The position numbers and the translations under genes were made by a program. A DNA stretch of 48,852 nt. Source: Haliea sp. Lineage in GTDB: Bacteria > Pseudomonadota > Gammaproteobacteria > Pseudomonadales > Halieaceae. Where the stretch lies: assembly GCA_002862465.1 (NCBI GenBank), contig PKDD01000078.1:1-48852 (forward strand). The letters run 5' to 3'. Below the pieces are notes generated by a model, which did not search any database, was not told the DNA's origin, and was given only the letters and a program-made list of their open reading frames with translations. Below are positions 13,813 through 32,365 of the stretch, piece after piece (position 1 is the first letter of the stretch; each line of letters opens with the position of its first letter).

Positions 13813-15534
13813 ATGCTGTTCTACTGCTACTCAGAAGTTAACGACTCAAATATAGAGGCGCGCTTGGGCGATGTCGATTACAGCTACTACTTCGTACTTA
13901 AGGCCTATGTCCCACTGCTCAAGAAAATAGGATTAGTAAAAATTGTAGGCAAACTAGACAAGCCATTCACTGAAGAATGCCAACAGGCTGTCAATAGCGG
14001 AGTTAGATGCTTTTTCCTCGCCTTCGCGCCTCCAAATAAAATTACCTTTGAACTTCCCTGTCCCGTGATCCCTATCTTTTCTTGGGAACACTCTGGCATC
14101 CCCAACCGGTATCCTATCACTGATCTGCAGAACAACTGGTGCAGTAAACTCAACCAAATTGGGCAAGCGATAACGCACTCTGCCTACGCAAAGCAGGTCA
14201 TTAAGACTGACATGCGAGAAACAAATAATAACTTTCCTATTGAGAGCATACCTGCTCCGCTTTGGGATGCATACGAGCCATTCAGAGATCGGACGAGCGG
14301 CAGAAAGGCGCTGAGAGACTGCGTGATTGCGTTCCGTACAACAGTCATTGATAGCTATGATTTCGAAATCGATCAGGAAAGCATTGTTCCCTCGCACAGA
14401 ACAGCGCGGCCACTTTCTCCTTCAGCCTTAAAAAATAGACGATGCAATGATGTCTACATAGATTTCAGTGAAATCAATCCTGAGGTATGGATAGCGGGTT
14501 TTCATCCAGCAGAAGCATGGGGTGTCTGGTCAGAAACGAGTAACCCATGGCTTATGCTGCCGAGCGCCGTTTCTGGAAACGTCCGACTAAAGTTGCGTTT
14601 GAATGCCCACGGGGACAATTGCGGTCGGTCTATTCAAATGAACCTAGGGGAACTGCACACCAATTTAGAGCCTACGGCTGCAATGTCCGAACTAGAGTTT
14701 GACCTAGACGTAACGAAGCCAAGTAATTTTATCTCGTTTAGCAACATTGACACATCAGGCACCCTGAACACTACTGACCCTCGCAACATCGGCATTGGTT
14801 TGAAAAGTATATCCATACAAAGCCTAGATCAGGATAGGGAGAACTCCAACGAGGCACCGATAGAGGAATTCTTAGGACACACCATCAAACTCTGTGGTGT
14901 CATCTACACCAGTATTTTTAACCCCAGAGATCAATCGAAAAACTGGGAAGACATCTTAACGGCCTTCTGCCTTGCATTCCGCGACAACGAAAATGTCACA
15001 CTAATCCTTAAGATGGCCTATAAGGATATGTCCGGTTACCTTGAAGATGTATTTTTTCTCTTGTCCCAGTTGCACCCATTTCACTGCAGAGTAATGGTCA
15101 TCCACGCCTATCTGCAACCTGATGAGTATGCAAACCTTATAGACGCTACAAGCTATATCGTGAATGCATCACGGGGTGAGGGCCAATGCCTTCCGCTGAT
15201 GGAATATATGTCATGCGGAGTGCCTGCTATTGCACCGAACAACACAGCAATGGCTGACTACGTAAATGTAAAAAATTCGTTTATTGTTAACTCAAGTCCG
15301 GAGCCATGCTGTTGGCCGCAGGACCCACAGCAAAATTTTACTACCCTCTGGTATAGACCGAGCTGGGAGTCGCTTCATGAAGCATATTTAGCGAGCTATC
15401 AGGTTGCGACAGAACAGCCGGGTATTTATCGCTCGATGTCCCGATGCGCTTGGGAAAGCCAGTATAACTTCTGCTCACATGACGCATTACAGACTCGCTT
15501 GGAAAGTTTTTTGAAAAGCATCAGAGAAAAATAA
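13813..15534 (+). CDS. GT4-type glycosyltransferase with inserted beta-domain (copy A)
   Basis: A 573-residue GT-B-like enzyme made of three parts. Residues 1 to about 155 form an N-terminal domain (CYSEVNDSNIEARLGDVDYSYYF, FSWEHSGIPNR, IPAPLWD). About 215-340 form an inserted beta-rich domain (WIAGFHPAEAWGVWSE ... ARDNCGR... NIGIGLKSISI). From about 355 a GT4 donor domain follows (CGVIYTSIFNPRDQSKNWEDILTAF, then EX7E as EGQCLPLME, then GVPAIAPNNTAMADY). The insert resembles a domain I know from other glycan proteins as DUF7024. It has three paralogues here: 15542, 28903 and 30662; the last is its closest match by order. The next gene starts 7 bases after its stop, so the two form an operon. 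Sugar and linkage are unknown. Confidence 0.8.
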   Translation: MLFYCYSEVNDSNIEARLGDVDYSYYFVLKAYVPLLKKIGLVKIVGKLDKPFTEECQQAVNSGVRCFFLAFAPPNKITFELPCPVIPIFSWEHSGIPNRYPITDLQNNWCSKLNQIGQAITHSAYAKQVIKTDMRETNNNFPIESIPAPLWDAYEPFRDRTSGRKALRDCVIAFRTTVIDSYDFEIDQESIVPSHRTARPLSPSALKNRRCNDVYIDFSEINPEVWIAGFHPAEAWGVWSETSNPWLMLPSAVSGNVRLKLRLNAHGDNCGRSIQMNLGELHTNLEPTAAMSELEFDLDVTKPSNFISFSNIDTSGTLNTTDPRNIGIGLKSISIQSLDQDRENSNEAPIEEFLGHTIKLCGVIYTSIFNPRDQSKNWEDILTAFCLAFRDNENVTLILKMAYKDMSGYLEDVFFLLSQLHPFHCRVMVIHAYLQPDEYANLIDATSYIVNASRGEGQCLPLMEYMSCGVPAIAPNNTAMADYVNVKNSFIVNSSPEPCCWPQDPQQNFTTLWYRPSWESLHEAYLASYQVATEQPGIYRSMSRCAWESQYNFCSHDALQTRLESFLKSIREK

Positions 15535-15541
15535 CGCTTCT

Positions 15542-17293
15542 ATGATTATAATTACCTATTCAGAAACAAGCGCTGAGACGATAGAACAGCGCCTAGGAAA
15601 AGCAGAGTACAGCTATTATTTCATTTACAAGAAGTATCTGCCTGCGCTAGCGAAAATTGGCACTCTCATTCCAGTAGAATCACCTCAAACCGAAGTTGAC
15701 AAGCTATTTTTAGAAAATCCGGATGAAAAATGTATTTTTCTTTCATTCTCCCCTCCACACAGAACACTGTTCAATTTACGCTGCCCCACCGTCTGTGTAT
15801 TTGCATGGGAGTTCAGTACGATTCCGGAAGAATCCTGGCACGATCGTCCTGAATATAACTGGGCTGCATCACTACAAAGTATAGGAAACGCCATCACTAT
15901 TTCGGAATTTGCCGCAGAGGTAGTTAACAAGGCCATACCTAATGGATTGAATCTTTCTGTCATACCTGCACCTGTCGACACCACAGCTTTACCTCCTCCG
16001 CCCAAGCGTAAAGACACTGCAGCTTTCAGCATAAAGGGGACACTGCACGATAGTCGAATCTACAACCTTAAGTCAGAGATAGCTGAAGACAATGCGCCGA
16101 GTTTAAGAGGCGCGGTAAAACCCCAGTCCTGGAACGGCAAAGATGCATATTTATCGTTTTCCAACGCAGATTTCGATCAAACTGAGTTGTTAGTAGGCTT
16201 TTATAGTTCAGAAGACTGGGGAACCTGGTCTAAAACACAGACGCCTTGGATCTTACTCCCTCATTTCGTCAAAGGACCAATGACGATAGAAGTTGACTTA
16301 TTGGCTTATGGGAAAAATATCGGCAGAGAGATTTACGTGAGCTTAGGTAAAGAATCAACTTCTATCAGAATTGATGGGGATTCAAAACTGTATTCTCTGG
16401 CATTCAGTCCACAAAGCGATGTGAATATTTTGAAATTCTCTAATCTGGATTTGACGCACGCAGCTGGTTCAAGAGATAACCGCTCACTTGGCATCGGCAT
16501 TAAATCGCTGAAGATGGCCAGGCCCAGTACATTTGCACAAAGAATCCAATCCAAACTATTAGGACACCGAAAAATCCCGCACAAAGATTCTCCGCTTCCA
16601 CCGAATTTTGCACCAGACGATGTTACCACTTTGTTAGAACTCAGTGGTGTTGTTTACACGAGCATACTCAACCCGAAAGACGGGCGTAAGAACTGGGAAG
16701 ATTTAGTGACGGCTTTTTGCTGGGCTTTCAAGAGTGATGAGAATGCTACTCTCGTGCTCAAAATGACTCATCACAAGCTGGGAAGCTTTCTGGGAACACT
16801 ATTGCAGCTCTATTCACAGATGTCACCGTTTAAGTGCCGAGTTGTAGCGATACACGGGTTTTTAACGAACGAGGAGTACCGATTGCTCATTGATCGATCA
16901 CACTTTGTGATTAACAGCTCGCACTGCGAGGGACAGTGTCTGCCACTGATGGAGTTTATGGGGCAAGGCGTTCCAGCGATTGCACCTGATCACACTGCTA
17001 TGGCTGATTATATCAATACAAATAATGCCTTCATTGTGACGTCAAATTTATATCCTACTTTTTGGCCATTTGATGAGCGTAAGGCGATGCGGACGCTGTG
17101 CTACCGAATTGACTGGCATTCACTAATGGAAGCATTTAGAGACAGTTTTTATGTTGCAATGCATGATGACGAGACCTACACATCTATGTCCACTGAAAGC
17201 ATCGCAGCTGTTGAAGCCGTTGCTGGGCACGAAGTGGTCTACAAAAAAATGATCAGCTACCTGTCCAGGACTGCCAAGAAAGTAGTAGAGTAA
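15542..17293 (+). CDS. GT4-type glycosyltransferase with inserted beta-domain (copy B)
   Basis: A 583-residue relative of the upstream gene. Residues 1-150: ITYSETSAETIEQRLG, AWEFSTIP and VIPAPVD. Residues about 215-325: the beta-rich insert, with GFYSSEDWGTWS at 219-230, AYGKNIGREIYVSLG and a closing SLGIGIKSLKM. Residues about 366-583: the donor domain, with GVVYTSILNPKDGRKNWEDL, Glu463 and Glu471 in EGQCLPLME, and APDHTAMADY. The Trp-Gly-x-Trp-Ser core of the insert and its C-terminal LGIGI strand recur in all four paralogues. It is nearly co-linear with the 584-residue protein at 28903-30657. No ribosome binding site is evident in the 7-base gap, so coupling to the gene before it is likely. 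It converges with rmd. Confidence 0.82.
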   Translation: MIIITYSETSAETIEQRLGKAEYSYYFIYKKYLPALAKIGTLIPVESPQTEVDKLFLENPDEKCIFLSFSPPHRTLFNLRCPTVCVFAWEFSTIPEESWHDRPEYNWAASLQSIGNAITISEFAAEVVNKAIPNGLNLSVIPAPVDTTALPPPPKRKDTAAFSIKGTLHDSRIYNLKSEIAEDNAPSLRGAVKPQSWNGKDAYLSFSNADFDQTELLVGFYSSEDWGTWSKTQTPWILLPHFVKGPMTIEVDLLAYGKNIGREIYVSLGKESTSIRIDGDSKLYSLAFSPQSDVNILKFSNLDLTHAAGSRDNRSLGIGIKSLKMARPSTFAQRIQSKLLGHRKIPHKDSPLPPNFAPDDVTTLLELSGVVYTSILNPKDGRKNWEDLVTAFCWAFKSDENATLVLKMTHHKLGSFLGTLLQLYSQMSPFKCRVVAIHGFLTNEEYRLLIDRSHFVINSSHCEGQCLPLMEFMGQGVPAIAPDHTAMADYINTNNAFIVTSNLYPTFWPFDERKAMRTLCYRIDWHSLMEAFRDSFYVAMHDDETYTSMSTESIAAVEAVAGHEVVYKKMISYLSRTAKKVVE

Positions 17294-17581
17294 GGCTCTC
17301 CATACTTGCTTGAACCGTTGAATACGACTGCCTACACAGGCCACAATGATATGGTTTATGAGCGGATTTTTATCACGAAAACTCTCTATTACGAGGCTTC
17401 AAAAAGGGAACAATATATTTGTGATTACTATATTACATATAAGGGAGATAGTGCATTACGTTGATAGATTATCATCAGAATAAATAAAATAGCGCTGAAT
17501 TGCTCCGCTTAGAAATCAACGCTAGTAAGCAGTTGGGCGCATTTCAGCAAAGCATTAAATCCAGATTTTGAGCATGAGCAA

Positions 17582-18484
17582 TCATGGAGATTCTGATTTT
17601 TCGAACATCCAGCGCAAGGTATCCCGTATCGGCATCGCCTCAAGTGAAGGACATAATTCAAGCAACTTTTTGTTATCGCCTACTAGCTCTTTGACCTCAT
17701 TCTCGCGAACGAAGTCTGGGTTCACCGCCACATCAATCTTGTACCCAGCAATATCGTTCAATTCATCAATAATACTCGCTAGCGTGCATCCCGACCCTGA
17801 ACAAATATTGTAGGCCTCACCAGGCAACGCATGTTCAATCAGTAGCTGATATGCGGCGCTAACAAATCTCACGTCGGAAAAATCGCGGATAACGTCAATG
17901 TTACCCAGCTCAATTTTGGGCTTATTCTGTTGAAAGTGTGTGACGAGCTTTGGAATAAGAAATTTATCAGCCTGACCTACACCGGTGTAGTTGAATGGGC
18001 GAGTAACAGAAATCGGCAAATGTTTCGACCACGTCTTTGCCATCAGTTCCATCGCGACCTTACTCGTCGCATAGTCATTAGCAGGCGAAAAAGCCGTTTT
18101 TTCATCCAAGGCGCCTTCAATGGCATTGCCATACACGTTTGCACTACTCGCTAGTAACACCTTTTCCGGAGGTGACGTTTGTCTAGAAAGCGCAGACAAC
18201 AAATTCCGAGTGCCAACGATATTAGTCATATACATTTCGGCAACATCCCCATGAGGTACAAAGGTGATCGCAGCTAAATGTATGACGAAATTTGGCTTGA
18301 ACGTATCTATAATTTTGTTCAAGGCAGTGGCATCTAAAAGGTTACCCTCAATGCAGCTTGCACATGCAATCTCGAAGGGAAGCTGACTCAACCCAACGAC
18401 CTCATAGCCATGCAGGAATAATTCTTGAGCAATATAGGGGCCTGTGAAACTTGCAATACCTGTAATAAGTACTTTTTTACTCAT
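17582..18484 (-). CDS. rmd: GDP-4-dehydro-6-deoxy-D-mannose reductase (extended SDR)
   Basis: A 300-residue extended SDR with the NAD(P) loop TGIASFTG (8-15), catalytic Tyr138-x-x-x-Lys142 (YATSK) and the Rmd-like phrases HLAAITFVPHGD, RPFNYTGVGQ, DVIRDFSDVRF and YNICSG. It would reduce the 4-keto sugar made by Gmd to GDP-D-rhamnose; the RPFNYTG/FSDVRD pattern fits Rmd-type reductases better than fucose synthase (Fcl), which also epimerises. Its ATG overlaps the gmd stop by one base (TGATG), so the two are coupled. The D-rhamnose product is a family-based inference; a GDP-6-deoxy-D-talose product cannot be excluded from sequence. Confidence 0.85.
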   Translation of the reverse strand: MSKKVLITGIASFTGPYIAQELFLHGYEVVGLSQLPFEIACASCIEGNLLDATALNKIIDTFKPNFVIHLAAITFVPHGDVAEMYMTNIVGTRNLLSALSRQTSPPEKVLLASSANVYGNAIEGALDEKTAFSPANDYATSKVAMELMAKTWSKHLPISVTRPFNYTGVGQADKFLIPKLVTHFQQNKPKIELGNIDVIRDFSDVRFVSAAYQLLIEHALPGEAYNICSGSGCTLASIIDELNDIAGYKIDVAVNPDFVRENEVKELVGDNKKLLELCPSLEAMPIRDTLRWMFEKSESP

Positions 18485-19518
18485 CAGAAAGACAAGCCAG
18501 TTTTGTTCCGTCGAATATCCGCTTCGACCATCATCTCACACAGCTGCTCTAGTGATGTTTCAGCTTCCCAGCCAAGTAATTGCTTCGCCTTCGAAGGGTC
18601 ACCGATTAAGAGTTCTACCTCAGCAGGACGATAGTATTCTGGGTTAACCTTAACGAGTTCTTTTCCCGAACTGGCGCACCTGCCAACCTCTTGCTCATCC
18701 TTTCCCTCCCACTGTATTGACATATCTACCGCAGCAAAGGCAAGCTCTACGAAATTTCTGACGGTTTCTGTTCTATTGGTCGCCAACACAAAAGTATCAG
18801 GCGTTTCCGCCTGAAGCATACGCCACATACCATCGACATAATCCTTAGCATAACCCCAATCCCGCTTTGCATCGAGGTTTCCTAATTCAAGAACATCCGC
18901 CATGTCGAGATAAATCTTAGCTACCGTGTCAGTGATCTTGCGGGTGACAAACTCCTTTCCACGCAGCGGAGACTCGTGGTTGAACAAAATTCCACTGCAT
19001 GCAAACATATCATACGATTCACGGTAGTTAACTGTCATCCAATGGGCATATAGCTTTGCGACGCCATAGGGGCTTCTCGGATAGAATGGCGTGTCTTCCT
19101 TCTGGGGAACATCCTGAACTTTTCCAAACATCTCTGATGTCGACGCCTGATAGAAACGGATATTTTTGTCCGTAGCTTTAATCGCTTCAAGTAAATTCAG
19201 AGCACCCAAGCCAGTAATTTGAGACGTCGCCATAGGCTGCTTAAATGATACCCCCACAAAACTCTGGGCTGCCAAATTATAGACCTCCTCCGCCTCACTC
19301 GCTTCCAACAAGCGCATGGCATCCATAGAATCTGTCAGATCGTAGTCAATAAGTTCCAGATTTGGATGTTGGCGGATACCCACCTCCTCCATCCTCCAAA
19401 AGTTAACCGCGCTCGTTCGGCGACATGCGCCGAAAACTTTATAACCCTTCTCCAAAAGCAAGGCCGCAAGATAAGCCCCGTCCTGCCCAGTCACACCGGT
19501 AACAACAGCTTTTTTCAT
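18484..19518 (-). CDS. gmd: GDP-mannose 4,6-dehydratase
   Basis: A 344-residue enzyme converting GDP-D-mannose to GDP-4-dehydro-6-deoxy-D-mannose, the entry to GDP-D-rhamnose, GDP-L-fucose and GDP-perosamine. Seen: [11 protein letters not shown] (7-17), the typical ACRRTS, the catalytic Thr/Ser-Glu region [11 protein letters not shown] (123-133), and Tyr151-x-x-x-Lys155 ([12 protein letters not shown]), followed by [12 protein letters not shown] and TRKIT. The frame is open upstream to 19587, but the ATG at 19518 gives the standard N-terminus and has AGGAAATAAG before it. The stop overlaps the rmd start. No manA/manB/manC genes are in the window, so GDP-mannose must come from elsewhere. Confidence 0.95.
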
Positions 19519-19896
19519 CTTATTTCCTACCGTTCCAAATCTATCGAATTCATTTGATAAACACAGTTGTACCCTGCCAGGCTCCACTAATAAAGGTTAA
19601 ACCTTAGAGGTAAACTCCGCCCTTAAGACAACGACATACCTAGATCGCTCTTTTATAGGAAACAGTCACAGCACATATTTCTATAGTCTTCGCGCCCAAA
19701 TACTGTCTCTTTTATTACTTTATTACGAAAATTATTCGTTCGTAGTGTCTAACGCTCACCATACCATATCAAAAATCACACTACTAAATGAGCAAAATGT
19801 TACCGCCACACTGTTTATCTGGCACTAGAATGTGCCGAAAGCCAATTCGGGGCTCTTTGAATTCTTTCTACGCCATGCTCCGATCCACCGGTTACG
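19519..19896. other. intergenic region upstream of gmd
   Basis: 378 bases between the GT4 stop and gmd, both genes on the minus strand. I see no coding frame that looks real. It contains a 13-base palindrome near gmd (19593-19605) and a weak hairpin, GGCAC/GTGCC at 19821-19836, just past the upstream gene's end. gmd-rmd probably has its own promoter here. Confidence 0.5.
19593..19605. repeat. small palindrome upstream of gmd
   Basis: AAGGTT-A-AACCTT, six-base arms around one base, 75 bases upstream of the gmd start. Possibly an operator; could be chance. Confidence 0.2.
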
Positions 19897-21180
19897 CTAA
19901 GACTTTTCTTCATCACTGAGTATAGTAGAAATTTTCGCCAGTGTTTCGGAAAACACAGAAGCATCCTCTACCTCCTGACACATCGAAGCCATAACGCCAA
20001 TCACCCGGTCATTAATAATCGAAGACATAAAACGATTTTCAATGGCGGAGGGGAGAAAGCTTGATAGCGAAGCAATATACTGGGCTAAAGAGTGATGATT
20101 TTGAAGATATTGATAGCCCGCCCCACCCGTATCGAGCAGTTCTTGCTCTCCCGACAGAATTCTCTCTAAGATAGCAATCAACCCCTCTTGCTCCGAATTC
20201 GAGGACACCTTTAAGACCACATTATTTGGCAACTCGCCATACCATCCGACATCTGAGACGATCGACGCTATCCCATGAGACCAATAGCGCAATTGACTGG
20301 CAGAGGCCTCTCCCATAGTTGGATTCCTCAGATTTAGTGCGAGATCTGAACGGGCGATAGCCTTATCCAAAACGTCATCATCGACAAATCCAACCACCTT
20401 AATAAATTCAGCTAACCCAAAGTTTGCAGCCTGAGACAGTAATTCTTCCGCCTTGCTAATATTGCCGTAAAGAGAAAGTCGAAAAAGGTTGGGCTGGCTA
20501 ACCTCAGCCCAAGCACTGAAAAACTGCGTGAGGCGACGATTTGGCCCCGCATGTCCACAGAAAATAATTTCCAAAGGACGAGTAAACTGTCGATGATTAG
20601 GAGCGCCAACTGCGGCGTCATAGGGTAAATTTAGCTTGATGACTGGCCCGCTATACCTCGCTTTTACCTTCTCTAAAGCGTATTGTGAATGAACAACGAT
20701 TCCGTAAGCGTTAGAGATGAATGTCTCGAATGGCGGATATAATGTTACAAAATCTCCGTATTGTTCCTGAGAATCTCCGCACCACTCATATGTTTTATCG
20801 CTATACAATTGAGAAAGTAGCTTACCAGCCTCCGTGCCATATTCGTTTATAACCATTTCCTGAAGATCAAATTCAGGATGCTCTTTCGCATGCGCAATGC
20901 CAAGTTCAAGCAAGCAAACATCATGCAAGATGATGACCCCAGGATTTTCCATTGCCTGATTGACAATGCCACAATGCAAGGAGCTATTACCGATATTGTA
21001 AATATTGAGGGCATTTCCTGCCCAAGCGTGGGTTTCAGGCGTCAACTCTTGGTAAATCTCCGTTGCGTCAGTGATTACGCCGAGAGAAAAGGCTTTTTCT
21101 AAATATGGGAGCAATGCGCGAGTATATCTACCTATCTCCGTTTTCTCGACGTCGAGCGGCGAAAACCAGCGAATATTCAT
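19897..21180 (-). CDS. GT4-like glycosyltransferase with noncanonical EX7E site
   Basis: A 427-residue GT-B protein. The N-terminus MNIRWFSPLDVEKTEIGRYT is followed by NIGNSSLHCGI and VIILHDVCLLELG, then PFETFISNAYGIVVHSQYALEKV; the donor half has FCGHAGPNRRLTQFFSAW, LYGN and RNPTMGEASASQLRYWSHGIASIVSD. The same blocks (GNSSFHYEYF, VVLHDIYLGD, SYGVLVHSKSA, RGESSAALLDSMAAE) occur in the first half of the 951-residue protein at 24556, so these two share a subfamily. At the usual second glutamate of EX7E there is a Tyr, as is common when this subfamily's motif is GE(A/S)S. It starts 2 bases after the stop of the GT4 gene upstream in transcription, in one operon of three genes. Confidence 0.82.
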   Translation of the reverse strand: MNIRWFSPLDVEKTEIGRYTRALLPYLEKAFSLGVITDATEIYQELTPETHAWAGNALNIYNIGNSSLHCGIVNQAMENPGVIILHDVCLLELGIAHAKEHPEFDLQEMVINEYGTEAGKLLSQLYSDKTYEWCGDSQEQYGDFVTLYPPFETFISNAYGIVVHSQYALEKVKARYSGPVIKLNLPYDAAVGAPNHRQFTRPLEIIFCGHAGPNRRLTQFFSAWAEVSQPNLFRLSLYGNISKAEELLSQAANFGLAEFIKVVGFVDDDVLDKAIARSDLALNLRNPTMGEASASQLRYWSHGIASIVSDVGWYGELPNNVVLKVSSNSEQEGLIAILERILSGEQELLDTGGAGYQYLQNHHSLAQYIASLSSFLPSAIENRFMSSIINDRVIGVMASMCQEVEDASVFSETLAKISTILSDEEKS

Positions 21181-21182
21181 AA

Positions 21183-22226
21183 CTAAAGCAGGCTTCCAAT
21201 TACTCGATCCCAGGAAATATCCATACTCACTATTTTTTCGAGCGCATTTTCACCATAAAGCTTGGATAAAGACCTATCTGACCAGATACGGTCCATTTTT
21301 TCACCCAACAAAAGAGCATCAGGTGCAACGACGATTCCATTTACATCGTCGGCAACGAATTCCAATGCGCCACCTGAATCTGTAAGCGTTATAACGCCCT
21401 TGGAGGAAAGCATAGCTTCGGGCGTAATGTAGCCATAATCCTCATCATATGCAGGAAAAATTACCATAAGACACTGCGCATAATATTGAAGTTTTTCATT
21501 ATCACTTATATGCCCCAGCCATGTAATATTTTCTGTAACCTTTAACTCGACTGCACGCTGCTTCAATTGCTCAAGATACTTATCATCATCGGCCGTTCCT
21601 GCAAACACAACCCTTACACTTGGTGAGCAGTGAGCGAGAGCCTCAATAACGAGTTCCTGGCGTTTCATAGGAGTTATTCGACTGGGGAAGAAAAAGTAAT
21701 CTCCGTACTCTTCATGATAAAACTTTTCCATTGACCTAGGAGGCGGATACAAAACGCCTGAGTCGATGTTATTAAACTTTAATAAACGACCTGACACATT
21801 ATGCGAGATTGTATAAACTTTTTTACAGGTCGATATTGCGTCATTATCTTGATTAAAAATTAAATCTCTAACGCGCCCGCCATCTGGCATTGACGCTAAA
21901 TCGTTATATTGTGTCTCCCACAGTTCGTACGCGGCGCGATGTTGATGCAAAATCCACAGTGCCTTGTCGCTATGTTCCAAAAGCCAAGCGGGAAACCTTA
22001 GACCAATAACCTTGTCAATCTTCACCCCATTGATTCCATCAATATCCATTAGCTTGCAAGCTAGGATGCTGTCAACCAAAGACTGCTGTGGGTGCCATTT
22101 AAAGGGGACTGTTATTAATGTTGCTTTATGACCTCGCTCTCTTAAAGAGGCAATCAAATCCTCCGCTAGCACCTCTGCCCCACCACTAGAGAACGGAATT
22201 TGAGTGTTCAGGACCGCTATATTCAC
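21183..22226 (-). CDS. GT4-family glycosyltransferase
   Basis: A 347-residue GT-B enzyme: QIPFSSGGAEVLAEDLIASL near the start, LHQHRAAYEL, VLYPPPRS, then the donor half with FPSRITPMKRQELVIEAL, FAGTADDDKYLEQL, the EX7E pair in EDYGYITPE and GGALEFV, and the closing helix WDRVIGSLL. A close paralogue of 12313-13530, and likely to use the same kind of donor. The start is GTG at 22226 with GGAG five bases before it. It sits in a tight three-gene run: 14 bases after the DUF4214 gene and 2 bases before the next GT. Given the shared locus, a D-rhamnosyl- or mannosyltransferase is a fair guess, not shown. Confidence 0.88.
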   Translation of the reverse strand: MNIAVLNTQIPFSSGGAEVLAEDLIASLRERGHKATLITVPFKWHPQQSLVDSILACKLMDIDGINGVKIDKVIGLRFPAWLLEHSDKALWILHQHRAAYELWETQYNDLASMPDGGRVRDLIFNQDNDAISTCKKVYTISHNVSGRLLKFNNIDSGVLYPPPRSMEKFYHEEYGDYFFFPSRITPMKRQELVIEALAHCSPSVRVVFAGTADDDKYLEQLKQRAVELKVTENITWLGHISDNEKLQYYAQCLMVIFPAYDEDYGYITPEAMLSSKGVITLTDSGGALEFVADDVNGIVVAPDALLLGEKMDRIWSDRSLSKLYGENALEKIVSMDISWDRVIGSLL

Positions 22227-22240
22227 CTTAACTCCAGTCT

Positions 22241-23501: not shown

Positions 23502-23812
23502 AATTGAATAAAATACTATGAAAAATAGAGAGTTAGATGCATATAATCATATTATTTTGAAACTGTATCACATTTGTTGCCCTTCATCTTACTAAACTTC
23601 GAAGAGTTGTGGACGGTTGGCCGCGACAGCCCGCGTCATACTGAAAATGGCGATCGGTGGCCCTGTCAATTATAGAAGGACTTGCAATTCCTATCCGGTA
23701 CAACTCACAAACTATAATTACTGCGGACTAGGTAGATATCGGCTACGGGCCTATGCCATGCAACAGACCCAAAGGGTTGATATACTCGGTCGAATTCAGA
23801 TAAGAGCAGCGT
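23502..23812. other. divergent intergenic region
   Basis: About 310 bases between the remnant/DUF4214 gene (minus) and the membrane-protein gene (plus). The left third is A+T-rich and should hold the minus-strand promoter. A TATAAT occurs near 23714 without a fitting -35. I see no convincing coding frame. Confidence 0.4.
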
Positions 23813-24559
23813 ATGACATCTCGACGACAACAGTATAGCCCCTCGAGGCCAGAGACTTCGATGACGAATGCAGATGGCCTATCTGAAGGAGCGTTGCGCG
23901 AGCTGCTGTCCGCTCGCCGAGAGATGTTACGCTGGAAAACGATCGCCAAGCAAAATGAGGAACGTATCAATCAGATAGAGAGCAATTCACCGCTTTTATA
24001 TTTATTAATACAAGTTATTCCTAAAGTAAAACAACACTGGAAATTATTGCTCTTGCTGACGGTCGGTGCCTTAGTGACCCTGCCCTTGTGGCCGTTTATT
24101 CTAGTGGCATTAGTCATACCCAAGGGACGCCAGTTTCTCTGGTCTATCGTTGCAAAGGTTACCGCCACTTTTCCAGAATATCGCGTATCTCTCTGGTCTT
24201 TTTCAGAGAAACTAGGCTCATCAAATGGTTTATTGGGTCGAACGTGGCTCAAGTTTATGCAGGGCAGAGGCCTGGGCCGCGGCGAGTATAATAAAATTGC
24301 GCCACTTACCTATGCGAGGCCCAAAAACAGTATTAAAGCTATTGCTGAACTTAGTTATGAACAGATCCAATGGCATATTTTCCAACAGTTGAGTCCACAG
24401 AAACGATTTCTGCTGCAAAGCTTTAGCGTTACGCAGAAAAGCCTGATTAAAGACAGCGAAGCGCGCCAATTACTGTCTACATCGAGGGCTGAAATTAGCC
24501 TAATCAAGATTGCACTTGCTAAACATTCGACCGACACGCCACCCACGGTGCATTTGTGA
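23813..24559 (+). CDS. membrane-anchored protein of unknown function, coupled to a double GT
   Basis: A 248-residue protein with no family I recognise. Residues about 24-56 look like a coiled-coil helix (LRELLSARREMLRWKTIAKQ), about 75-118 form a hydrophobic hairpin (LLLLLTVGALVTLPLWPFILVALVIP), and the C-terminal half is basic and soluble. Its TGA overlaps the GTG of the 951-residue double glycosyltransferase (24556-24559), so they are translated together. It may be the membrane anchor of that enzyme, which has no membrane segment of its own; this is inference from coupling and topology. Starts: ATG 23813 (AGATAAGAG upstream) or ATG 23861. Similar helix-plus-hairpin proteins accompany long glycosyltransferases in other glycan loci. 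Confidence 0.55.
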   Translation: MTSRRQQYSPSRPETSMTNADGLSEGALRELLSARREMLRWKTIAKQNEERINQIESNSPLLYLLIQVIPKVKQHWKLLLLLTVGALVTLPLWPFILVALVIPKGRQFLWSIVAKVTATFPEYRVSLWSFSEKLGSSNGLLGRTWLKFMQGRGLGRGEYNKIAPLTYARPKNSIKAIAELSYEQIQWHIFQQLSPQKRFLLQSFSVTQKSLIKDSEARQLLSTSRAEISLIKIALAKHSTDTPPTVHL

Positions 24560-27411
24560 GTCTTGTTATAGATCTTGGAGATTCAACTCACTGGCTGGAT
24601 AGCGTAGTCAAATGGCCCGCGTGGTTGACCACTGCGTGGATTTTAGACCATCAGGCTCAACTCATTTGTCGATTATCTAACTCCGATGACTATACAAAAC
24701 TCCGCAAGACTGTACCCATGCCGGATAAACTGATCGCTTACCCTGCCTATAAGTCTTTGGAAAAAAATCTCTCTCACGAAGAACTGGCGCTGGTGCATAA
24801 AACATTTGTTCAATCTCTGGGTGCGCAGCACTATGTCAAGCTGACGTCGGAAATGATGGCGGAGGAAGCTTTCGAGGGAGCATTGCTTCCGCAAACAAAA
24901 GTTCAAAAGACTACGAACAACAGCCGGTTAGCGCTGGTGTCTCCAATGCCACCGACGGCATCGGGCATTGCCAATTACTGTATGGAAATTCTTCCTGCTC
25001 TCGCAGAACATTATGACGTGACTCTTGTAGTTGACCGCGTGTCTGACCTTGATGCTGGACTCACTGCGCGATTTGCCGCCATGAGCCACGCACAATTTTT
25101 GAAACTGGGCGCTTGTTTTGACCGCGTCATGTACCATTTCGGCAACTCATCCTTTCATTATGAGTACTTCACCTTACTGCAAGCTCATCCGGGCGTTGTA
25201 GTTCTGCACGACATCTACCTAGGGGACTGCATCTTTAGCAATTTCATGCAATTAGGAATTACTGAACTGCATCAAAAAATCTATACCTCTCACGGATGGG
25301 CCGCGTTACTGGATTGCCAGAGTACCGTCCAACAATCGATAAATCTCTACCCCGCATGTGGGCCCCTGTTTAGCGACAGTTACGGCGTACTGGTTCATAG
25401 TAAATCTGCAAGGGACAACTTATCCCTTTTCTTTGATGCAACAACGCTATCAAATCTTTGTGTTACACCTCTTGCACGCAAAATCAAGCAGCTTCCCGAC
25501 CGCACAACCTCACGTCAAAAGCTCAACATTCCAGAAGATGCTAAAGTCTACGCTACCTTTGGGTTTTTAAATCCGAATAAGTACCTCAATGAGTTACTGG
25601 AAGCCTGGGCCGGATCGCTGCTCGCTCATGATGCAACAGCTAGATTATATCTAATAGGCGGCTGCGGTCAGAGAGACCTCGAGGCGGATATAATTACTCG
25701 CATATCAAAAATGCCCATACCCGAGCAAATCATTCTAACTGGGTTCGTAGAAACGACTGCATATGATAATTACCTCAGTGCGGTAGACATATCTATTCAG
25801 CTACGCTGTAACTCTAGAGGGGAGTCTTCAGCCGCACTTCTTGATAGTATGGCCGCTGAGCTTACGACCATTATCAATTCGCACGGTAGCATGGCCGAAA
25901 TTCCTGACGAAGCAGTTATAAAGTTGCGGGACGAATTCACTATTGAAGAACTAATTGAAGCACTTAATAACAGCGCTGAATCCACGGGACAGGGGTCACT
26001 TGCTCGATCCTACGTTGCCAAAGCCCATGCTCCAGAGAAAGTTGTCAGCTCTTATGTGAACTATATCGAAAGTTGCTATCGAGAAAACCCAAGCACGCTT
26101 TTAAATGGTGTCCAAAAAGCTTTGTTTACGTCTAAATTAGACGAACTATCACCCAATGCTATTTTCTCCTGCCTTGAAGACCTGACTGACCTCATGTCTT
26201 GTGCAGTTGGCGCGACTAGCACGCTTACCGGTCGCCAGATTCTTGTCGATATCTCTGTAGTAGCGCACCACGATTTAAAAAGTGGTGTCCAGAGGGTAGT
26301 TAGAAATATTCTTCACGAACTACTGAAAAATCTATATCTTGGCTTTCGTGTTGAAGCGGTATATTTCGATTTCGAGTCTGGACACTTCCGCTATGCGCGT
26401 ACCTTTGTGAATACTTTTCTAGACTTGATGCCAAATCAACTAGTCGATGACGCAGTAGAAGCGAAATCCGGTGATATTTATTTGGGTCTCGATTTCGAAT
26501 CTCGACTAGCGAGGGAAAAGAAATCAAGATGGTGGCTACAGACATGGCGAGGGCGTGGCGTCAGGGTGTACCACGTTTTGTATGACCTAATGCCAATGCA
26601 GTTACCTCACTGCTTTCCCTCTGATCACATACCGTTTTTTGAAAACTGGGTTTCTGCTATTACCGATATCAGCGACGGCGTAGTTAGCATTTCTAGGACA
26701 GTTGCCAACGAGTATGAGGCATGGCTGAATAATAAGGCCTATGACGCCACCTCCAGACCACGCATCGGCTACTTCCACCTCGGCGCGGAAATGGAGTCAC
26801 GGACTAGTGAAGGGGCTCTAGAAGCCTCTGAAACGCGCATGCTTAAAAGATTAGCCGGTAAAGACTATCTGCTCATGGTAGGAACCATCGAGCCGCGAAA
26901 AGGGCACAGTCAGGTTTTAAAAGCCTTTGAGATATTGTGGTCAAGAGGGTTAGATATCGAACTCGTCATCGTAGGGTCTGAGGGCTGGGTAGACAAAGAA
27001 TTAATTGAAGATCTCAGAGCACTCGAAACTAAAACAGAGAAAGTGCAATGGCTGAATTATGTCAGTGATGTAATGTTGAAGTCTCTCTATGAAGGTTGCG
27101 CCGGCACACTCATGGCATCATTTGGCGAAGGCTTTGGATTGCCACTTATTGAAGCTGCGCATTATGGCGCCTCATTGATAGCCCGAGACCTTCCCATATT
27201 CCACGAAGTGTGCGGCGATCATGCTTGGTACTTTCAGGCCCAATCCGAAGCAGAGCTAGCATCGGCACTGCAGGAGTGGCTTAAGCTTTACTATGCATCA
27301 TCTGAGCCCAAACCATTGGGCGTAGAGTGGCAAGATTGGGGGCAGAGTGCCGCACAGCTGATCGACAATGTCATCCACAATCAATGGTACGTCGCAGCAG
27401 AGGAAAGTTAA
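24556..27411 (+). CDS. bifunctional protein with two GT4 glycosyltransferase domains
   Basis: A 951-residue enzyme with a 120-residue N-terminal region of unknown kind, then two complete GT-B units. Unit 1 (about 122-520): LALVSPMPPTASGIANYCMEILPAL, VVLHDIYLGD, YATFGFLNPNKYLNELLEAW, and the noncanonical GESSAALLDSM. Unit 2 (about 565-945): DISVVAHHDLKSGVQRVVRN, HVLYDLMP, LMVGTIEPRKGHSQVLKAF, and a canonical EX7E in EGFGLPLIE. This order matches multi-domain polymerising mannosyl-/rhamnosyltransferases such as WbdA-like proteins and D-rhamnan enzymes, where two linkages alternate. With gmd-rmd beside it, this is the best candidate for building a D-rhamnose or mannose repeat. The GTG start overlaps the upstream stop. 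Confidence 0.87.
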   Translation: MSLVIDLGDSTHWLDSVVKWPAWLTTAWILDHQAQLICRLSNSDDYTKLRKTVPMPDKLIAYPAYKSLEKNLSHEELALVHKTFVQSLGAQHYVKLTSEMMAEEAFEGALLPQTKVQKTTNNSRLALVSPMPPTASGIANYCMEILPALAEHYDVTLVVDRVSDLDAGLTARFAAMSHAQFLKLGACFDRVMYHFGNSSFHYEYFTLLQAHPGVVVLHDIYLGDCIFSNFMQLGITELHQKIYTSHGWAALLDCQSTVQQSINLYPACGPLFSDSYGVLVHSKSARDNLSLFFDATTLSNLCVTPLARKIKQLPDRTTSRQKLNIPEDAKVYATFGFLNPNKYLNELLEAWAGSLLAHDATARLYLIGGCGQRDLEADIITRISKMPIPEQIILTGFVETTAYDNYLSAVDISIQLRCNSRGESSAALLDSMAAELTTIINSHGSMAEIPDEAVIKLRDEFTIEELIEALNNSAESTGQGSLARSYVAKAHAPEKVVSSYVNYIESCYRENPSTLLNGVQKALFTSKLDELSPNAIFSCLEDLTDLMSCAVGATSTLTGRQILVDISVVAHHDLKSGVQRVVRNILHELLKNLYLGFRVEAVYFDFESGHFRYARTFVNTFLDLMPNQLVDDAVEAKSGDIYLGLDFESRLAREKKSRWWLQTWRGRGVRVYHVLYDLMPMQLPHCFPSDHIPFFENWVSAITDISDGVVSISRTVANEYEAWLNNKAYDATSRPRIGYFHLGAEMESRTSEGALEASETRMLKRLAGKDYLLMVGTIEPRKGHSQVLKAFEILWSRGLDIELVIVGSEGWVDKELIEDLRALETKTEKVQWLNYVSDVMLKSLYEGCAGTLMASFGEGFGLPLIEAAHYGASLIARDLPIFHEVCGDHAWYFQAQSEAELASALQEWLKLYYASSEPKPLGVEWQDWGQSAAQLIDNVIHNQWYVAAEES

Positions 27412-27907
27412 AAACATTGACTTCAGGAATCTAACCGTTAGAAACGCTCGAAGCGCAGTATCTATCTGCTAACTCTAAGCTGCTTACTCGCTCGTCACAG
27501 CAAAAGATAGCGACAGCCAGACTAGCAGCACTTAGAAAAATTTTTCTCTGATCGTGTAGGAAACATTTTGGCATTCGACAACAGTGAATAGCCTGCCAGG
27601 CTTGAGTACTGAGCAGAGTCCTATTGCACTAGCGCGGACATCCGAACCGATTGCTTTACCTTGAAAACGTCGCCGGCATGCACTCTGCTTCGAATACGGG
27701 TGAAGACTGTCCCTTTATATTCTTCACAATCGCATGCCGTGATGGCTCAACTTTCCTCTACAGTCACCCCTAATCTATCGGGCCGGGTTATAGGCTCACT
27801 CCTGCCCAAAGCATTCTGGCTGGTATTTTTTTTCATTTCTTCTTTGATACGTTCGTTGCTTCGGCTTATATTGTGTTACTGCGCAATAAAAACCAAAGGG
27901 AAATAGT
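27412..27907. other. intergenic region between double GT and methyltransferase
   Basis: 496 bases. It contains an A/T palindrome (AGAAAAATTTTTCT, 27534-27547) without the GC stem of a terminator. A hydrophobic 81-codon frame at 27661-27906 starts with an unsupported TTG and looks accidental. No RNA gene is recognisable. Confidence 0.4.
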
Positions 27908-28738
27908 GTGACTATTCTTGGCCCGAATATTCCAGACATCAATGATCCTACATGGGTTGGCCTGATCGACGCCAGTCAAAGTGGTTGGTACCCGACCGAT
28001 ACCGGCGAAGTATTTACAGGATTTCATATATCGGCCGATGATTATGTACTTGACGTGGGCTGCGGGCCGGGTGATGCGACGCTGTTTTGCGCGCGCCGAG
28101 GCGCCCATGTCACTTTCACAGATGTTGTTGCCGAATCGGTAACGGATTTAGAAACAAAAATCAGAGACCTTGGAACTGCTCGAGGGTTCGAGGGCATAGT
28201 CTGCGACAGCAATCCTCTCCTGGTTCCAGATGGAAACGCAACCCGCATCATTTGCAGAGAGGTGCTGGAGCATGTGTCGGATCCGCAGCGTGTGCTTTCC
28301 GAACTGGTCCGCGTAGGACGACCCGGCGCACTCTACTTACTCACAGTACCCAGCGAAGAGGGTGAAAAGATACAGGAGAAGTTCGCCCCACCGATATACT
28401 TTCAGCACCCCAATCATATTCGGATTTTCAGCAAAGACGCGTTTCTTTCGCTGGTGGGAGACTCAGGTTTGGTGGTAGAAAGCTATTCTGCATATGGATT
28501 TTACTGGCTATTCGGCATGTGCATGCACTGGGCCATACAGGCAGCAAAAGGCGATGATATCAATAGTCAGCCATTCGCTGTTTATTCTTCAATAGCCCCT
28601 CCCTTTGACGAAAGCCTTCAAACTTGGGCTACCCTGTGGCGCCGATTAATTTCAACGCCGGAGGGTAAATCTTTCAAACAAGAAATCGATAAGATCCTTC
28701 CAAAAAGCCAAGTTATTCTGGCACGCAAACCCGTGTAG
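27908..28738 (+). CDS. class I SAM-dependent methyltransferase
   Basis: A 276-residue Methyltransf_11/UbiE-type enzyme. The SAM loop is VLDVGCGPGD (47-56), motif II about FTDVVAES, then ICREVLEHVSDPQRVLSELVRVGRPGA and FSKDAFLSLVGDSGL. It is related to the two methyltransferases at 33394 and 34325: all share a preface of the form LI..... GW...TGE, the phrase EVLEHV.DP.R.L.E.VR, and PNHI.IF..... The likely role is methylating a sugar of the glycan, for instance a chain-end cap, by analogy with methyl-capped rhamnans and mannans. GTG start at 27908 with AAAGGGA upstream. It stands alone, converging with a split GT. Confidence 0.85.
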   Translation: MTILGPNIPDINDPTWVGLIDASQSGWYPTDTGEVFTGFHISADDYVLDVGCGPGDATLFCARRGAHVTFTDVVAESVTDLETKIRDLGTARGFEGIVCDSNPLLVPDGNATRIICREVLEHVSDPQRVLSELVRVGRPGALYLLTVPSEEGEKIQEKFAPPIYFQHPNHIRIFSKDAFLSLVGDSGLVVESYSAYGFYWLFGMCMHWAIQAAKGDDINSQPFAVYSSIAPPFDESLQTWATLWRRLISTPEGKSFKQEIDKILPKSQVILARKPV

Positions 28739-28902
28739 CCAGCATCAGATTATGCCGCTTAAACAGCGCCATACCCCTGGGTTAAATCTAATACCTTTGA
28801 AGACCCGATATAGGCTACTAAGCTCTCTCACTCAATATTGCGGAAAAATAGCGGCGATCGCCTACGATTCTTCAATATCTACAATTTTTATACTTTTGCA
28901 TT

Positions 28903-30657
28903 TTAGAGTGCGCCTGCACTCTTTGCCGTTGTACTTGCAAATTGGCGTATTTTCTCTTCAACCTGCGAGGCCCCAGCACAGCGTTCAATTGCTTTGATGC
29001 AATTTATTTGCATCTCGCGATAACCGCTCGTATTGTGAGTCGCCAATTGGTAGCTGTTTTCAAAAGCTTTGCACAGTGAATCCCAGTTAATTTCATAGGC
29101 CATAGTGCTGATGGCTTTTCTTTCGTCCTGAGGCCAGTTTGTGGGGTATAAACTGGCGTCGATAACAAAGGCGTTTTCACCGTTGATGTAGTCAGCCATT
29201 GCAGTGTGGTTGGGTGCAACAGCAGGAATACCTTGGCCCATAAACTCCATCAGAGGCAGACATTGTCCCTCTGCAGTGGATGTGTTGACTACGAAGTGCG
29301 TGCTCTGGATAAGTATCTGATACTGCTCCTCCGTGAGAAAACCATGCACTGCAACCACTCTGCATTTGAAGGGCGACATCTTTGCATAGTTAGACAGAAG
29401 CCTACCCAAAAAAGTCAGATAGTTATTATGTGTCATCTTTAAAATCAAGGTCGCATTCTCCTGCTGTCTAAACATCCAGCAAAACGCCATGATCATCTGC
29501 TCCCAATTTTTTCGTCCGTCCTGAGGGTTGAACACACTCGTATATGTAATACCTTCCAAACTAAGCTGATGACTGAGGGCGTGACCGACCAAATTAATGT
29601 CCTTATCAAAAAATCCTCGGATCCTACTTAACCCGGAAAAAAATAATCTAGATAACCCGTTACTTAGCGCGCGTGGCCTGCGCATCTCGAGCCTTTGAAT
29701 TCCCAGTCCAATTGAGCGACGCTCTATTGAGTCTTCCGTCCGTTGAACGTCAATATTTGAAATCACCAACACGTCTACATCGTCTTCTGGCGCAAAACTT
29801 AGCTCGTAAGTCTCTGGGGCTTTGCTAGGGAAAATGCTGCGAGTTTGCTTGCCTAGGGTGACGTCAATCTGCCTTCCAATATTTTTCTCATAGGCCACCA
29901 GTTCTATCTTTATGATCAAGTGGCCACGCACCTTGAAAGGCAGTAGCAGCCAAGGTGACTCAGTTTTAGTCCATACTCCCCAGCTTTCTGGCTCGAAGAA
30001 ACCCACAAGAAAACGCATTGCGTCAGCATTATCCTCTCCGTAAAACTGTCGCACAGGTTTTTCATTCCAGGCCTGCATCTTCATAGGATCACGCGTGCTG
30101 AACATAACGTCATCAACGTTTTCCGGTGTGATGTCATAGTCTTTACTATCGTAGATAGCCGCTTCAATATTAAGCGTGTGACCTGACAGTCTGCCGGGTA
30201 TCTGAGCCGGGTCAATCGTCTCGACTGCAGCCGGAATCACACTAATGTCTACTGCCGAGGATACCTGTTTTTCTACCACACTCTTTGCATATTGCGAAAG
30301 CGTCAGCGCACTGCCTATGCGCTCAAGCATCAGTAGCCAATTATTTTCCTCTATGCCATTCAATGCTTCGCTGGGAATAGTACTGAATTCCCATGCAAAT
30401 ATGCAGACCGTCGGGCATTCAAGGTTGAGTTCAGTGCGACTTGGTGGCGTAAAGGAGAGAAAGATACACTCATCTTCCGGATGCGCATGAAAAATCTCAT
30501 CGACTTCGCTGGATGGATCAGCAACAGCAATGACTTTACCAATTCGCTCCAGTACAGGCAGGTACTTTACATAAATAAAATAGTAGCTGTAGTGAGCTTC
30601 CCCTAGATTTTCTTTTAGAGTTTCTGCACTGGTCTCTGAGTATGTAATGATAACCAT
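28903..30657 (-). CDS. GT4-type glycosyltransferase with inserted beta-domain (copy C)
   Basis: A 584-residue protein nearly co-linear with copy B (15542): ITYSETSAETLKENLGEAHYSYYFIY, CIFAWEFSTIPSE, SVIPAAVE; the insert LVGFFEPESWGVWTKTESPW ... AYEKNIGRQIDVTLG ... SIGLGIQRLEM; and the donor domain EGITYTSVFNPQDGRKNWEQMIMAFCWMF, EGQCLPLMEFMGQGIPAVAPNHTAMADY with the EX7E pair intact. It is the second gene of a pair, starting 4 bases after the stop of copy D. That pair is the reverse-strand counterpart of A-B. It should add one sugar of the repeat; which sugar is unknown. Confidence 0.82.
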   Translation of the reverse strand: MVIITYSETSAETLKENLGEAHYSYYFIYVKYLPVLERIGKVIAVADPSSEVDEIFHAHPEDECIFLSFTPPSRTELNLECPTVCIFAWEFSTIPSEALNGIEENNWLLMLERIGSALTLSQYAKSVVEKQVSSAVDISVIPAAVETIDPAQIPGRLSGHTLNIEAAIYDSKDYDITPENVDDVMFSTRDPMKMQAWNEKPVRQFYGEDNADAMRFLVGFFEPESWGVWTKTESPWLLLPFKVRGHLIIKIELVAYEKNIGRQIDVTLGKQTRSIFPSKAPETYELSFAPEDDVDVLVISNIDVQRTEDSIERRSIGLGIQRLEMRRPRALSNGLSRLFFSGLSRIRGFFDKDINLVGHALSHQLSLEGITYTSVFNPQDGRKNWEQMIMAFCWMFRQQENATLILKMTHNNYLTFLGRLLSNYAKMSPFKCRVVAVHGFLTEEQYQILIQSTHFVVNTSTAEGQCLPLMEFMGQGIPAVAPNHTAMADYINGENAFVIDASLYPTNWPQDERKAISTMAYEINWDSLCKAFENSYQLATHNTSGYREMQINCIKAIERCAGASQVEEKIRQFASTTAKSAGAL

Positions 30658-30661
30658 TGTA

Positions 30662-32365
30662 CTAATTTACTTCAGCCAGAAAATTATGCAATTGTGGCGC
30701 AGTGGTATCCAACGAACAGTGCCGCTGCAGCGCGCGAGCAGCCGCCGCAGACATCGCTTCGTAGATGTCTGGCGACTGATTTGCAATCTCAAAGCTTTTT
30801 TCAAATGCATGCAGTAATGATTCCCAATTAGGTCGGTAACAAAGCGTATTATAGCGACCCTCTAGGTCAGTTGGCCAAGCACAGGGCTCGCTGTTTGATT
30901 CAACCACGAACGCGTTCGCTGGAGAGATGTAATCATGCATTGCAGTATGGTTGGGCGCTATAGCGGGAATACCACATGACATAAAATCCATAAGCGATCG
31001 GCAGTGACCTTCCGCGCTAGCGTTGTTCACCACGAAAGAACTAGCCTCAATGAGGGCAGCGCGCTCAGCCGTGTTTAATGCGCCTTGAACGGCGACAATT
31101 CTGCAATCGAAGGGAGTAAGCTTGCACCAAATCTCTAGCAGATCATTGACGTAACTGAGAAGGTCGGTTCTTTCAACGACAAGAATCAAGTTAGCATCAG
31201 GTTGCCGCCGTAACGCCAGACAAAAAGCAATAATGATATCTTGCCAGCCATCTTTTCTGTCGGCTGGCTCAACCAAAGCAGTATAAACTACGCCCTGTAA
31301 ATGCAAAGGTTTGAAGTCGGCTGCGGTAAAATAATCCGAGTCTAAGGCGCCGTCTGCCTTCTCCATCCGAATGTTTAGACTGGCAACGCCAAGGCCTATG
31401 GTACGCGGATCATCGGCCCGTCCACGGTTTATCCGACTAAGGTTCTCAAAGCTGAGTACATTTCCCGGTGAGCGAATATCAAGCGAAAACTCGAATTCGC
31501 GAACTTGCGACTCAGGAATTACCGTTGCTGTCTCACCGCCTATTGAAACTTGTATTTCGCGGCCGATGTTAGGGCCAAACGCGCTTAAAGCAAGTTTAAC
31601 GAGGGTTTTGCCGTGCGCAGTCTGCGAGAGCTTAATCCAGGGGCTTAACGACCTTGACCACATGCCCCAATTCTCCGGTTCATAGAATCCCACGCCTATT
31701 GCATCTTGATTATAGGTGCCAAAATGCGCAGCAATTACAGTGCGGCCACTATATTTATCCTGTGCCCCACTGAGAGGAGAAATTACACTTTTACCAGGGT
31801 AAACAGTGTCACCAGTCAACACATAGTCTCTACTGTCCAGCACCACTTTTTTTAGGTCTATCGTGTCTTTTTTGACCGCCTTGACCGGGACCGACTTCAG
31901 TCGCATCTCGTGCCATTCATCCCAAACTGGCGCAGGAATGACCGCTATATGAAGCATCGAATCAGTGGCCTCGTTGATCGCCTGCATGGCAAAGGTTGAG
32001 CACGTGATCGCCGCGCTAAAAGCCCTTAACGACACAGGCAAACCGAAAACTGAATCGGTGTTGCTTTCGAGACCCACAATGGTCGGATGAGCCCAAGGAA
32101 AAACAGGGATTACGGAGCACGGTAAGTCTTCAGGGATGCAATGAGGGGGGGCAAAGGCAAAAAGATAGACTCTTTCATCATTGTCAATATGCCGCTGGCA
32201 TTCAGATTTGAAGTCAGAGTCAATCGTGTCCAAAACTACAACAGTACCGAGTTGTTCTAAGAGAGGAAGAAATCCTTGCAGCATTGAGATAGACGCAAAC
32301 TCAGACTGCTCTGTAAGCGTCATTTTGTTACTCTTTGTGGATGCTGAAAAGCAGTAAATATGCAC
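30662..32365 (-). CDS. GT4-type glycosyltransferase with inserted beta-domain (copy D)
   Basis: A 567-residue member of the split-GT family. N-terminal part: YCFSASTKSNKMTLTEQSEF, VYLFAFAPPH, VIPVFPWAHP, VIPAPVWDEW. Insert: GVGFYEPENWGMWSRSLSPWIKLS ... AFGPNIGREIQVSIGG ... TIGLGVASLNI. Donor domain: GVVYTALVEPADRKDGWQDIIIAFCLAL, then ASAEGHCRSLMDFMSCGIPAIAPNHTAMHDY. The EX7E pair reads E..RSLMD: the second Glu is Asp, unlike A, B and C. By position and by IPAP.WD it is the counterpart of copy A, though more diverged. GTG start at 32365 without a strong ribosome binding site. First gene of a two-gene run. Confidence 0.8.
   Translation of the reverse strand: MHIYCFSASTKSNKMTLTEQSEFASISMLQGFLPLLEQLGTVVVLDTIDSDFKSECQRHIDNDERVYLFAFAPPHCIPEDLPCSVIPVFPWAHPTIVGLESNTDSVFGLPVSLRAFSAAITCSTFAMQAINEATDSMLHIAVIPAPVWDEWHEMRLKSVPVKAVKKDTIDLKKVVLDSRDYVLTGDTVYPGKSVISPLSGAQDKYSGRTVIAAHFGTYNQDAIGVGFYEPENWGMWSRSLSPWIKLSQTAHGKTLVKLALSAFGPNIGREIQVSIGGETATVIPESQVREFEFSLDIRSPGNVLSFENLSRINRGRADDPRTIGLGVASLNIRMEKADGALDSDYFTAADFKPLHLQGVVYTALVEPADRKDGWQDIIIAFCLALRRQPDANLILVVERTDLLSYVNDLLEIWCKLTPFDCRIVAVQGALNTAERAALIEASSFVVNNASAEGHCRSLMDFMSCGIPAIAPNHTAMHDYISPANAFVVESNSEPCAWPTDLEGRYNTLCYRPNWESLLHAFEKSFEIANQSPDIYEAMSAAAARALQRHCSLDTTAPQLHNFLAEVN

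Follow-up and report, generated by a model that had tools for sequence, protein, structure and literature searches.

A DUF7024 domain between the lobes of paired GT4-type glycosyltransferases in Haliea sp., and the linker slot that it occupies

The stretch analyzed here, called the window, comprises the 48,852 nucleotides at positions 1 to 48,852 of contig PKDD01000078.1 from Haliea sp. (assembly GCA_002862465.1), and it holds two tandem pairs of genes encoding glycosyltransferase (GT) proteins of the GT4 type, each with a domain of the Pfam family DUF7024 (PF22895) inserted upstream of its donor lobe. This domain architecture is real, well defined and under-described, its chemistry being ordinary and its placement unusual and apparently modular. 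The first pair, on the forward strand, consists of A1 (13813..15534, 573 residues) and B1 (15542..17293, 583 residues), and the second, on the reverse strand, of A2 as first gene (30662..32365, 567 residues) and B2 as second gene (28903..30657, 584 residues), the four open reading frames lying where the original prediction had placed them. The insert covers 14491..14820 in A1 (residues 227-336, 32.3 bits), 16178..16516 in B1 (213-325, 39.9 bits), 29683..30021 in B2 (213-325, 33.1 bits) and 31367..31699 in A2 (225-333, 37.2 bits), above the curated cut-off of 24.4 bits in all four proteins, which agrees with the domain name that had been proposed for it. The motif that had been quoted for the insert is likewise present in all four, with the variants GFFEPESWGVWT in B2, NCGR in A1 and IGLGV in A2. 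In NCBIfam, the C-terminus of OpgB matches the same stretch at 16.5-23.4 bits, far under the whole-protein cut-off of 574.

Downstream of DUF7024, at residues ~370-500, GT4-type donor-lobe models of Pfam match all four proteins; for Glyco_trans_1_4 (cut-off 27 bits), A1 (29 bits) and B2 (28 bits) lie above the threshold, and B1 (22.7 bits) and A2 (20.4 bits) below it. No Pfam model covers the N-terminal lobe (N-lobe) of the four proteins, which is placed from the structure model described below. An EX7E motif had been claimed throughout; it is found as EGQCLPLME in A1 (15178..15204), B1 (16928..16954) and B2 (29245..29271), but at the corresponding site of A2 (30986..31012) the sequence is EGHCRSLMD, i.e., EX7D. 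Among the PHROGs, the four proteins match phage glycosyltransferase families only, mainly across the donor lobe. The genome holds six copies in total, arranged as three tandem pairs, the two further copies lying on another contig. This third pair (L007, contig C62), whose first gene is truncated at the edge where the contig begins, is followed by a Sulfotransfer_2 gene (97.6 bits).

An AlphaFold2 model of B1, the only one of the four proteins modeled, was built on 101 aligned sequences (pLDDT 91.4, pTM 0.90), after a single-sequence attempt at pLDDT 34.4 had been discarded. It places eight strands and almost no helix in residues 213-326, flanked by alpha/beta lobes at residues 1-150 and ~362-582. 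According to this model, B1 is a GT-B enzyme whose lobes are parted by a distinct domain of eight strands. The beta-rich domain that the original prediction had placed between two GT lobes is thus recovered by Pfam in all four proteins and, in B1, appears as a discrete insert rather than as part of one continuous fold. Foldseek comparison of the model with the PDB returned 227 matches at E <= 0.001, with GT-B enzymes at the top, led by SdgB, GlgM, TarM, a sucrose-phosphate synthase-like protein, GtfA, SenB and PimB'. GlgM, SenB, PimB', HepE and 3oy2, structures of 314-392 residues, align across 594-631 columns (rmsd 6-13 Å), as expected if both lobes are aligned and the insert is skipped; other chains, SenB among them, align along only ~205-220 columns, about one lobe. 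The list also holds BcsB and a CE2 esterase, both of which contain jelly-roll domains; because they superpose poorly (TMq 0.12-0.15, rmsd ~18) and their aligned ranges are unprinted, a jelly-roll fold for DUF7024 is a hint only. By sequence, neither the insert profile (E <= 10) nor the full profile (E <= 0.001) found a solved structure, and the family profile A4 gave a single weak match (E 0.043). A DUF1975-type insert was considered and rejected, since no DUF1975 model matches the four proteins at E <= 1.

Elsewhere, as had also been predicted, DUF7024 occurs as an appendage: it forms the C-terminus of OpgB and, in two genomes, that of a GT2 protein. Residues 620-763 of E. coli OpgB match the insert alignment with an hhalign probability of 98.5% (E 3.5e-15, 24% identity, 117 columns), and the two have the segments ESWGRWS, AYGNN and LGIG in common. 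Among 398 genomes of the phylum, DUF7024 exceeds its cut-off in 16, eleven of which belong to one family and carry frames of ~770 residues, the size of OpgB (the tool did not name them); the rest are the window's own genome, G007 with a GT4 insert, the two GT2-protein genomes and the borderline L136, which scores 23.4 bits, under the cut-off, once its frame is scanned. The GT2 proteins, from two genomes of one family (L134 and L135), are ~555 residues long, with the GT2 domain first (Glycos_transf_2, 37.7 and 38.3 bits) and DUF7024 last (30.3 and 29.2 bits). Within the class, 4 of 274 genomes show a match, 2 of them above the cut-off; the genomes of the class and phylum searches overlap. Additionally, a protein with multiple transmembrane segments, as judged by eye (L086:1009-2877), has a C-terminal match below the cut-off (23.4 and 19.7 bits in two scans). 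The domain was not found by name in the literature searched. OpgB (phosphoglycerol transferase I) resembles the window proteins in having a domain of the same Pfam family, but carries it at the C-terminus of a non-GT enzyme rather than in a GT-B linker. OpgB acts on periplasmic glucan, on the periplasmic side.

Relatives of the four proteins were collected by scanning genome contigs with a five-protein alignment, and the best 80 of 170 matches, forming 77 distinct loci, were typed with N-lobe, insert and C-lobe profiles from the same five proteins. In all 77 kept loci exactly two family members stand in tandem, a count to be read with care because the best-scoring cut may favor two-gene loci, and in all 77 the long slot sits in the first gene. 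A long slot without DUF7024 is combined with a short one in the second gene in 56 loci, and with a second long one in 7; DUF7024 is followed by a short slot in 8 loci, occurs in both genes in 5, and is present as two copies followed by a short slot in 1. DUF7024 is carried, i.e., by 14 of the 77 loci, always in the first gene and in 5 of them in both. A separate search for the nearest relatives matched 12 of 37 genomes, and ten stretches from seven of these were read, four of which, judged by length, share contigs with the 77 loci (L008/L121, L009/L119, L011/L116, L012/L117). Two DUF7024 copies stand in tandem within one linker in L112:6992-9253, L113:6541-8646 and L020:5655-9185. L118 is a stretch with a lone family copy, and L115:5131-7209 holds a single copy with a short linker and a C-terminal fusion to a methyltransferase domain (Methyltransf_23, 56.3 bits). 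L114:5842-12503 encodes three family GTs, none with DUF7024, whose linkers are charged and helix-like in two and acidic in one.

The boundaries of the slot can be recognized in members without an insert by L-x-G-x-V-x-DS before it and L-x-G-V-V-Y-T after it, segments whose counterparts in the B1 model, partly strands, are residues 160-170 and 362-376. Including these flanks, the slot measures 46 to 295 residues in the 16 proteins printed, a range that would suit a rigid hinge or a neutral insertion at a tolerant site. Such a reading is nevertheless quite improbable, given that the E-W-G-W, N, R and G positions are kept and are common to the insert and OpgB, and that the insert tree follows the lobe tree (see below). 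Pfam DUF7024 is found at E <= 0.01 in 25/25 insert-bearing proteins, the window's four included. The possibility that the other long linkers are diverged DUF7024 domains was rejected, since none of 36 selected members matches at E <= 1.

What these other linkers hold varies. Most of the printed DUF7024-less long linkers from Pseudomonas, Collimonas and related bacteria have a WYR...RDLLP-like stretch amid Pro/Ala-rich sequence, with a hydrophobic moment of 0.27-0.55 in six typed examples. The slot could accordingly be imagined as a membrane or lipid-carrier tether, in which DUF7024 replaces the helix-like motif of Pseudomonas, but this is quite unlikely: the long linkers of L035 and L036 are devoid of the motif, the hydrophobic-moment set is a weak one of six examples without background, and in 65 of the 77 loci the short linker of the second gene has neither DUF7024 nor the helix-like motif. 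For L114, a home-made coiled-coil heuristic gave best-window scores reached by 9 and 23 of 300 shuffles for two typed segments, compared with 126 and 213 of 300 for the control linkers of B1 and L081; these figures are only suggestive of coiled-coil-like linkers. The interlobe linker is a module slot, which may be near-empty, or hold one or two DUF7024 copies, Pro-rich sequence with a helix-like motif, or a coiled-coil-like segment. With such different modules in the same linker, an accessory role fits, and one fixed mechanism does not.

In a tree of the lobes (106 rows), the DUF7024 label takes two changes, compared with 22.8 for shuffles. The tree of 45 DUF7024 domains, drawn without L086 and L136, from which no domain was cut out, contains a seven-row clade of Halioglobus first genes (97/93) as well as a core clade of second genes (99/94), both of which are also found in the lobe tree. 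These matching clades indicate that the insert has for the most part been passed on along with the lobes. The deeper forks of the DUF7024 tree are weak, and the GT2 copies and some tandem second copies form long branches. By its motifs, the first gene of Halioglobus is like the second gene of other loci, so that the two genes may have changed places; the split of the lobe tree that joins the Halioglobus first genes to those second genes has modest support (99/74).

A2 diverges from the other members in a specific way. Among 160 aligned proteins it alone loses E90, it is the only one whose EX7E motif does not end in E, and it alone loses both the R and the K of the DGRKNW motif, of which A1 loses the R (replaced by S) and L050 the K. 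K407 is changed to V in A2, and L050 has R there. Several of these lost residues are, as we presume from GT4 enzymes in general, donor-binding. At near-invariant lobe positions (those 97% conserved in the others; position 1, changed by the GTG start alone, was dropped), A2 differs at 17 of 43, A1 at 2, and B1 and B2 at none; in the DUF7024 domain, A2 differs at 1 of 11 such positions. No other terminal branch of the lobe tree is as long as that of A2 (2.15). As its reading frame is intact, A2 is better read as a pseudo-enzyme than as the product of a gene in decay. Judged from its residues, A2 is probably inactive as a transferase.

Several neighboring genes bear on the likely product. Between the two pairs, on the reverse strand, lie genes for a GDP-mannose 4,6-dehydratase (Gmd; 18484..19587; PF16363, 463.5 bits) and an NAD-dependent reductase (17582..18484; Pfam Epimerase/GDP_Man_Dehyd), which appears Rmd-like. 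On the forward strand, 27908..28738 encodes a methyltransferase (Methyltransf_23) of a type that accompanies the GT pair across loci, and the window holds further GTs, methyltransferases, two sulfotransferases and acyltransferases. Within the limits set by the best-80 cut, 8 kb flanks and stretches that in part stop at contig ends, relatives in the 77 loci were found for gmd in 57, rmd in 56, an acyltransferase in 60 and the tandem GT at 24556 in 52, and, with queries taken from one of the 77 loci, for wzt and wzm in 56 each; gmd, rmd, wzt and wzm relatives occur together in 49. Each of the window methyltransferases at 27908, 33394 and 34325 finds relatives in 73 loci, although in 31 loci the three match the same gene and are not told apart. 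Numbers are lower in the 14 loci with DUF7024, which show the methyltransferase in 11, the tandem GT in 8, gmd in 6, rmd in 5, the acyltransferase in 5, wzt in 4 and wzm in 3. In the window's genome, another contig (C79) encodes a Wzm relative (37% identity) and a Wzt with a Wzt_C domain (92.2 bits); a second, weaker Wzm relative has 26% identity.

The arrangement resembles ATP-binding cassette (ABC) transporter-dependent O-polysaccharide assembly, as with WbdA/WbdD and the common polysaccharide antigen (CPA) of Pseudomonas, in the frequency of gmd/rmd/wzm/wzt and of the methyltransferase among the family loci. It differs in that, according to excerpts of PMC11231755, a coiled coil in another protein, WbdD, separates termination from polymerization, whereas here the modules lie inside the GT linker. 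Loci of P. syringae with gmd/rmd, wzm and wzt are described in excerpted text as CPA loci making D-rhamnose (PMC12608077), and the P. syringae pair in L054 would, from its neighbors, belong to such a locus. Excerpts of another study state that the CPA cluster is absent in most plant-associated strains, in which many O-polysaccharides contain L-rhamnose (PMC6804347), and on this account D-rhamnose is put forward as no more than the probable sugar type of the present system. Gene names for the pair were not found in excerpts of four Pseudomonas papers (PMC6804347, PMC12608077, PMC9796965, PMC8319346).

Taken together, the GT-B, GT4-type transferases of the two tandem pairs would assemble a surface polysaccharide whose precursor is probably a GDP-linked 6-deoxyhexose of the D-rhamnose type. 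In GT-B enzymes the N-lobe is the acceptor side and the C-lobe the donor side, and DUF7024, in the linker between them, may hold the nascent glycan next to the active cleft. In this way the acceptor could stay bound to the enzyme pair from one addition to the next, and A2, as a probably inactive transferase, would serve its partner B2 through its binding surfaces. As a whole, this proposal of a rhamnose-type polymer pair with a glycan-holding DUF7024 and an inactive partner is put forward tentatively, its chances falling a little short of even. In its favor, the domain exceeds its cut-off in all four proteins, is discrete in the confident B1 model and shares clades with the lobes; DUF7024 is common to the insert, OpgB, the GT2 protein and (below the cut-off) the multi-transmembrane protein; one or two copies occupy the same slot; and A2 keeps 10/11 DUF7024 residues while its lobes lose 17/43. 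There are published parallels for inserted domains: in excerpts of PMC8561734, the inserted DUF1975 of SdgB binds the acceptor peptide and makes dimers, and in those of PMC4703063 the intervening domain of O-GlcNAc transferase (OGT) occupies the same position, between Rossmann folds.

Several results weigh against this proposal. DUF7024 is missing from 63 of the 77 loci, and the 36 long-linker proteins mentioned above give no match; the contrast between lobes and insert in A2 by itself falls short of significance (Fisher p = 0.077), and the A2 insert, at 32-47% identity to its kin, is no more similar than the lobes. The beta-domain matches to BcsB and the CE2 esterase superpose poorly, and sugar and linkage are deduced from gmd/rmd alone, of which only the minorities given above are found among the 14 DUF7024 loci. 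Trimerization through the TarM insert is reported, in excerpts of PMC10672168, to be without effect on processivity; the same excerpts state that the trimerization domain of TarS does affect it. The caution expressed here follows from this TarM result and from the SdgB parallel, which equally supports partner docking.

Docking is the main rival to glycan holding: DUF7024 would be a module by which the paired GTs, or a GT and a terminating methyltransferase, are kept together. The adjacency of two members in all 77 loci, with the long slot always in the first, is in line with this, as are the fusion of one relative (L115) to a methyltransferase, the intact frame of the seemingly inactive A2, and the oligomers made by the beta inserts of TarM, GtfA/GtfB and SdgB (excerpts of PMC8561734). 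However, the partner is without DUF7024 in 9 of the 14 loci that carry the domain, so that DUF7024-DUF7024 contact is not general, and OpgB and the GT2 protein have the domain in other settings; docking is for these reasons somewhat unlikely. A broader extension of glycan holding, in which the slot is an evolvable module setting polymer grip and length, with DUF7024 as a clamp, helices or coiled coils elsewhere and the dead A2 as a chain-holding subunit, is speculative and unlikely. SdgA/SdgB, TarM and GtfA/GtfB resemble the window proteins in being GT-B enzymes that have acquired a beta-domain insert, and SdgB, TarM and GtfA are top Foldseek neighbors, but their DUF1975 lies within the acceptor lobe and DUF7024 lies between the lobes. 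OGT differs in GT family and substrate, and no OGT-type model matches at E <= 1.

Chain holding and length control by the cytoplasmic polymerases of ABC-exported polysaccharides are known for few systems. One documented case of length control is the molecular ruler of WbdD (excerpts of PMC11231755). Linkers with zero, one or two DUF7024 copies, or with unrelated modules, offer a natural series for studying processivity and length control, and through such work DUF7024, that of OpgB included, would obtain its first assigned function.

Two further observations concern the remainder of the window. The genes at 43789-44817 and 45054-46082 encode tandem Acyl_transf_3 proteins of 342 residues each that are 69% identical, and the gene at 38631-40952 encodes a membrane protein of 773 residues with a sub-threshold match to YfhO (19.7 vs 28.5 bits).

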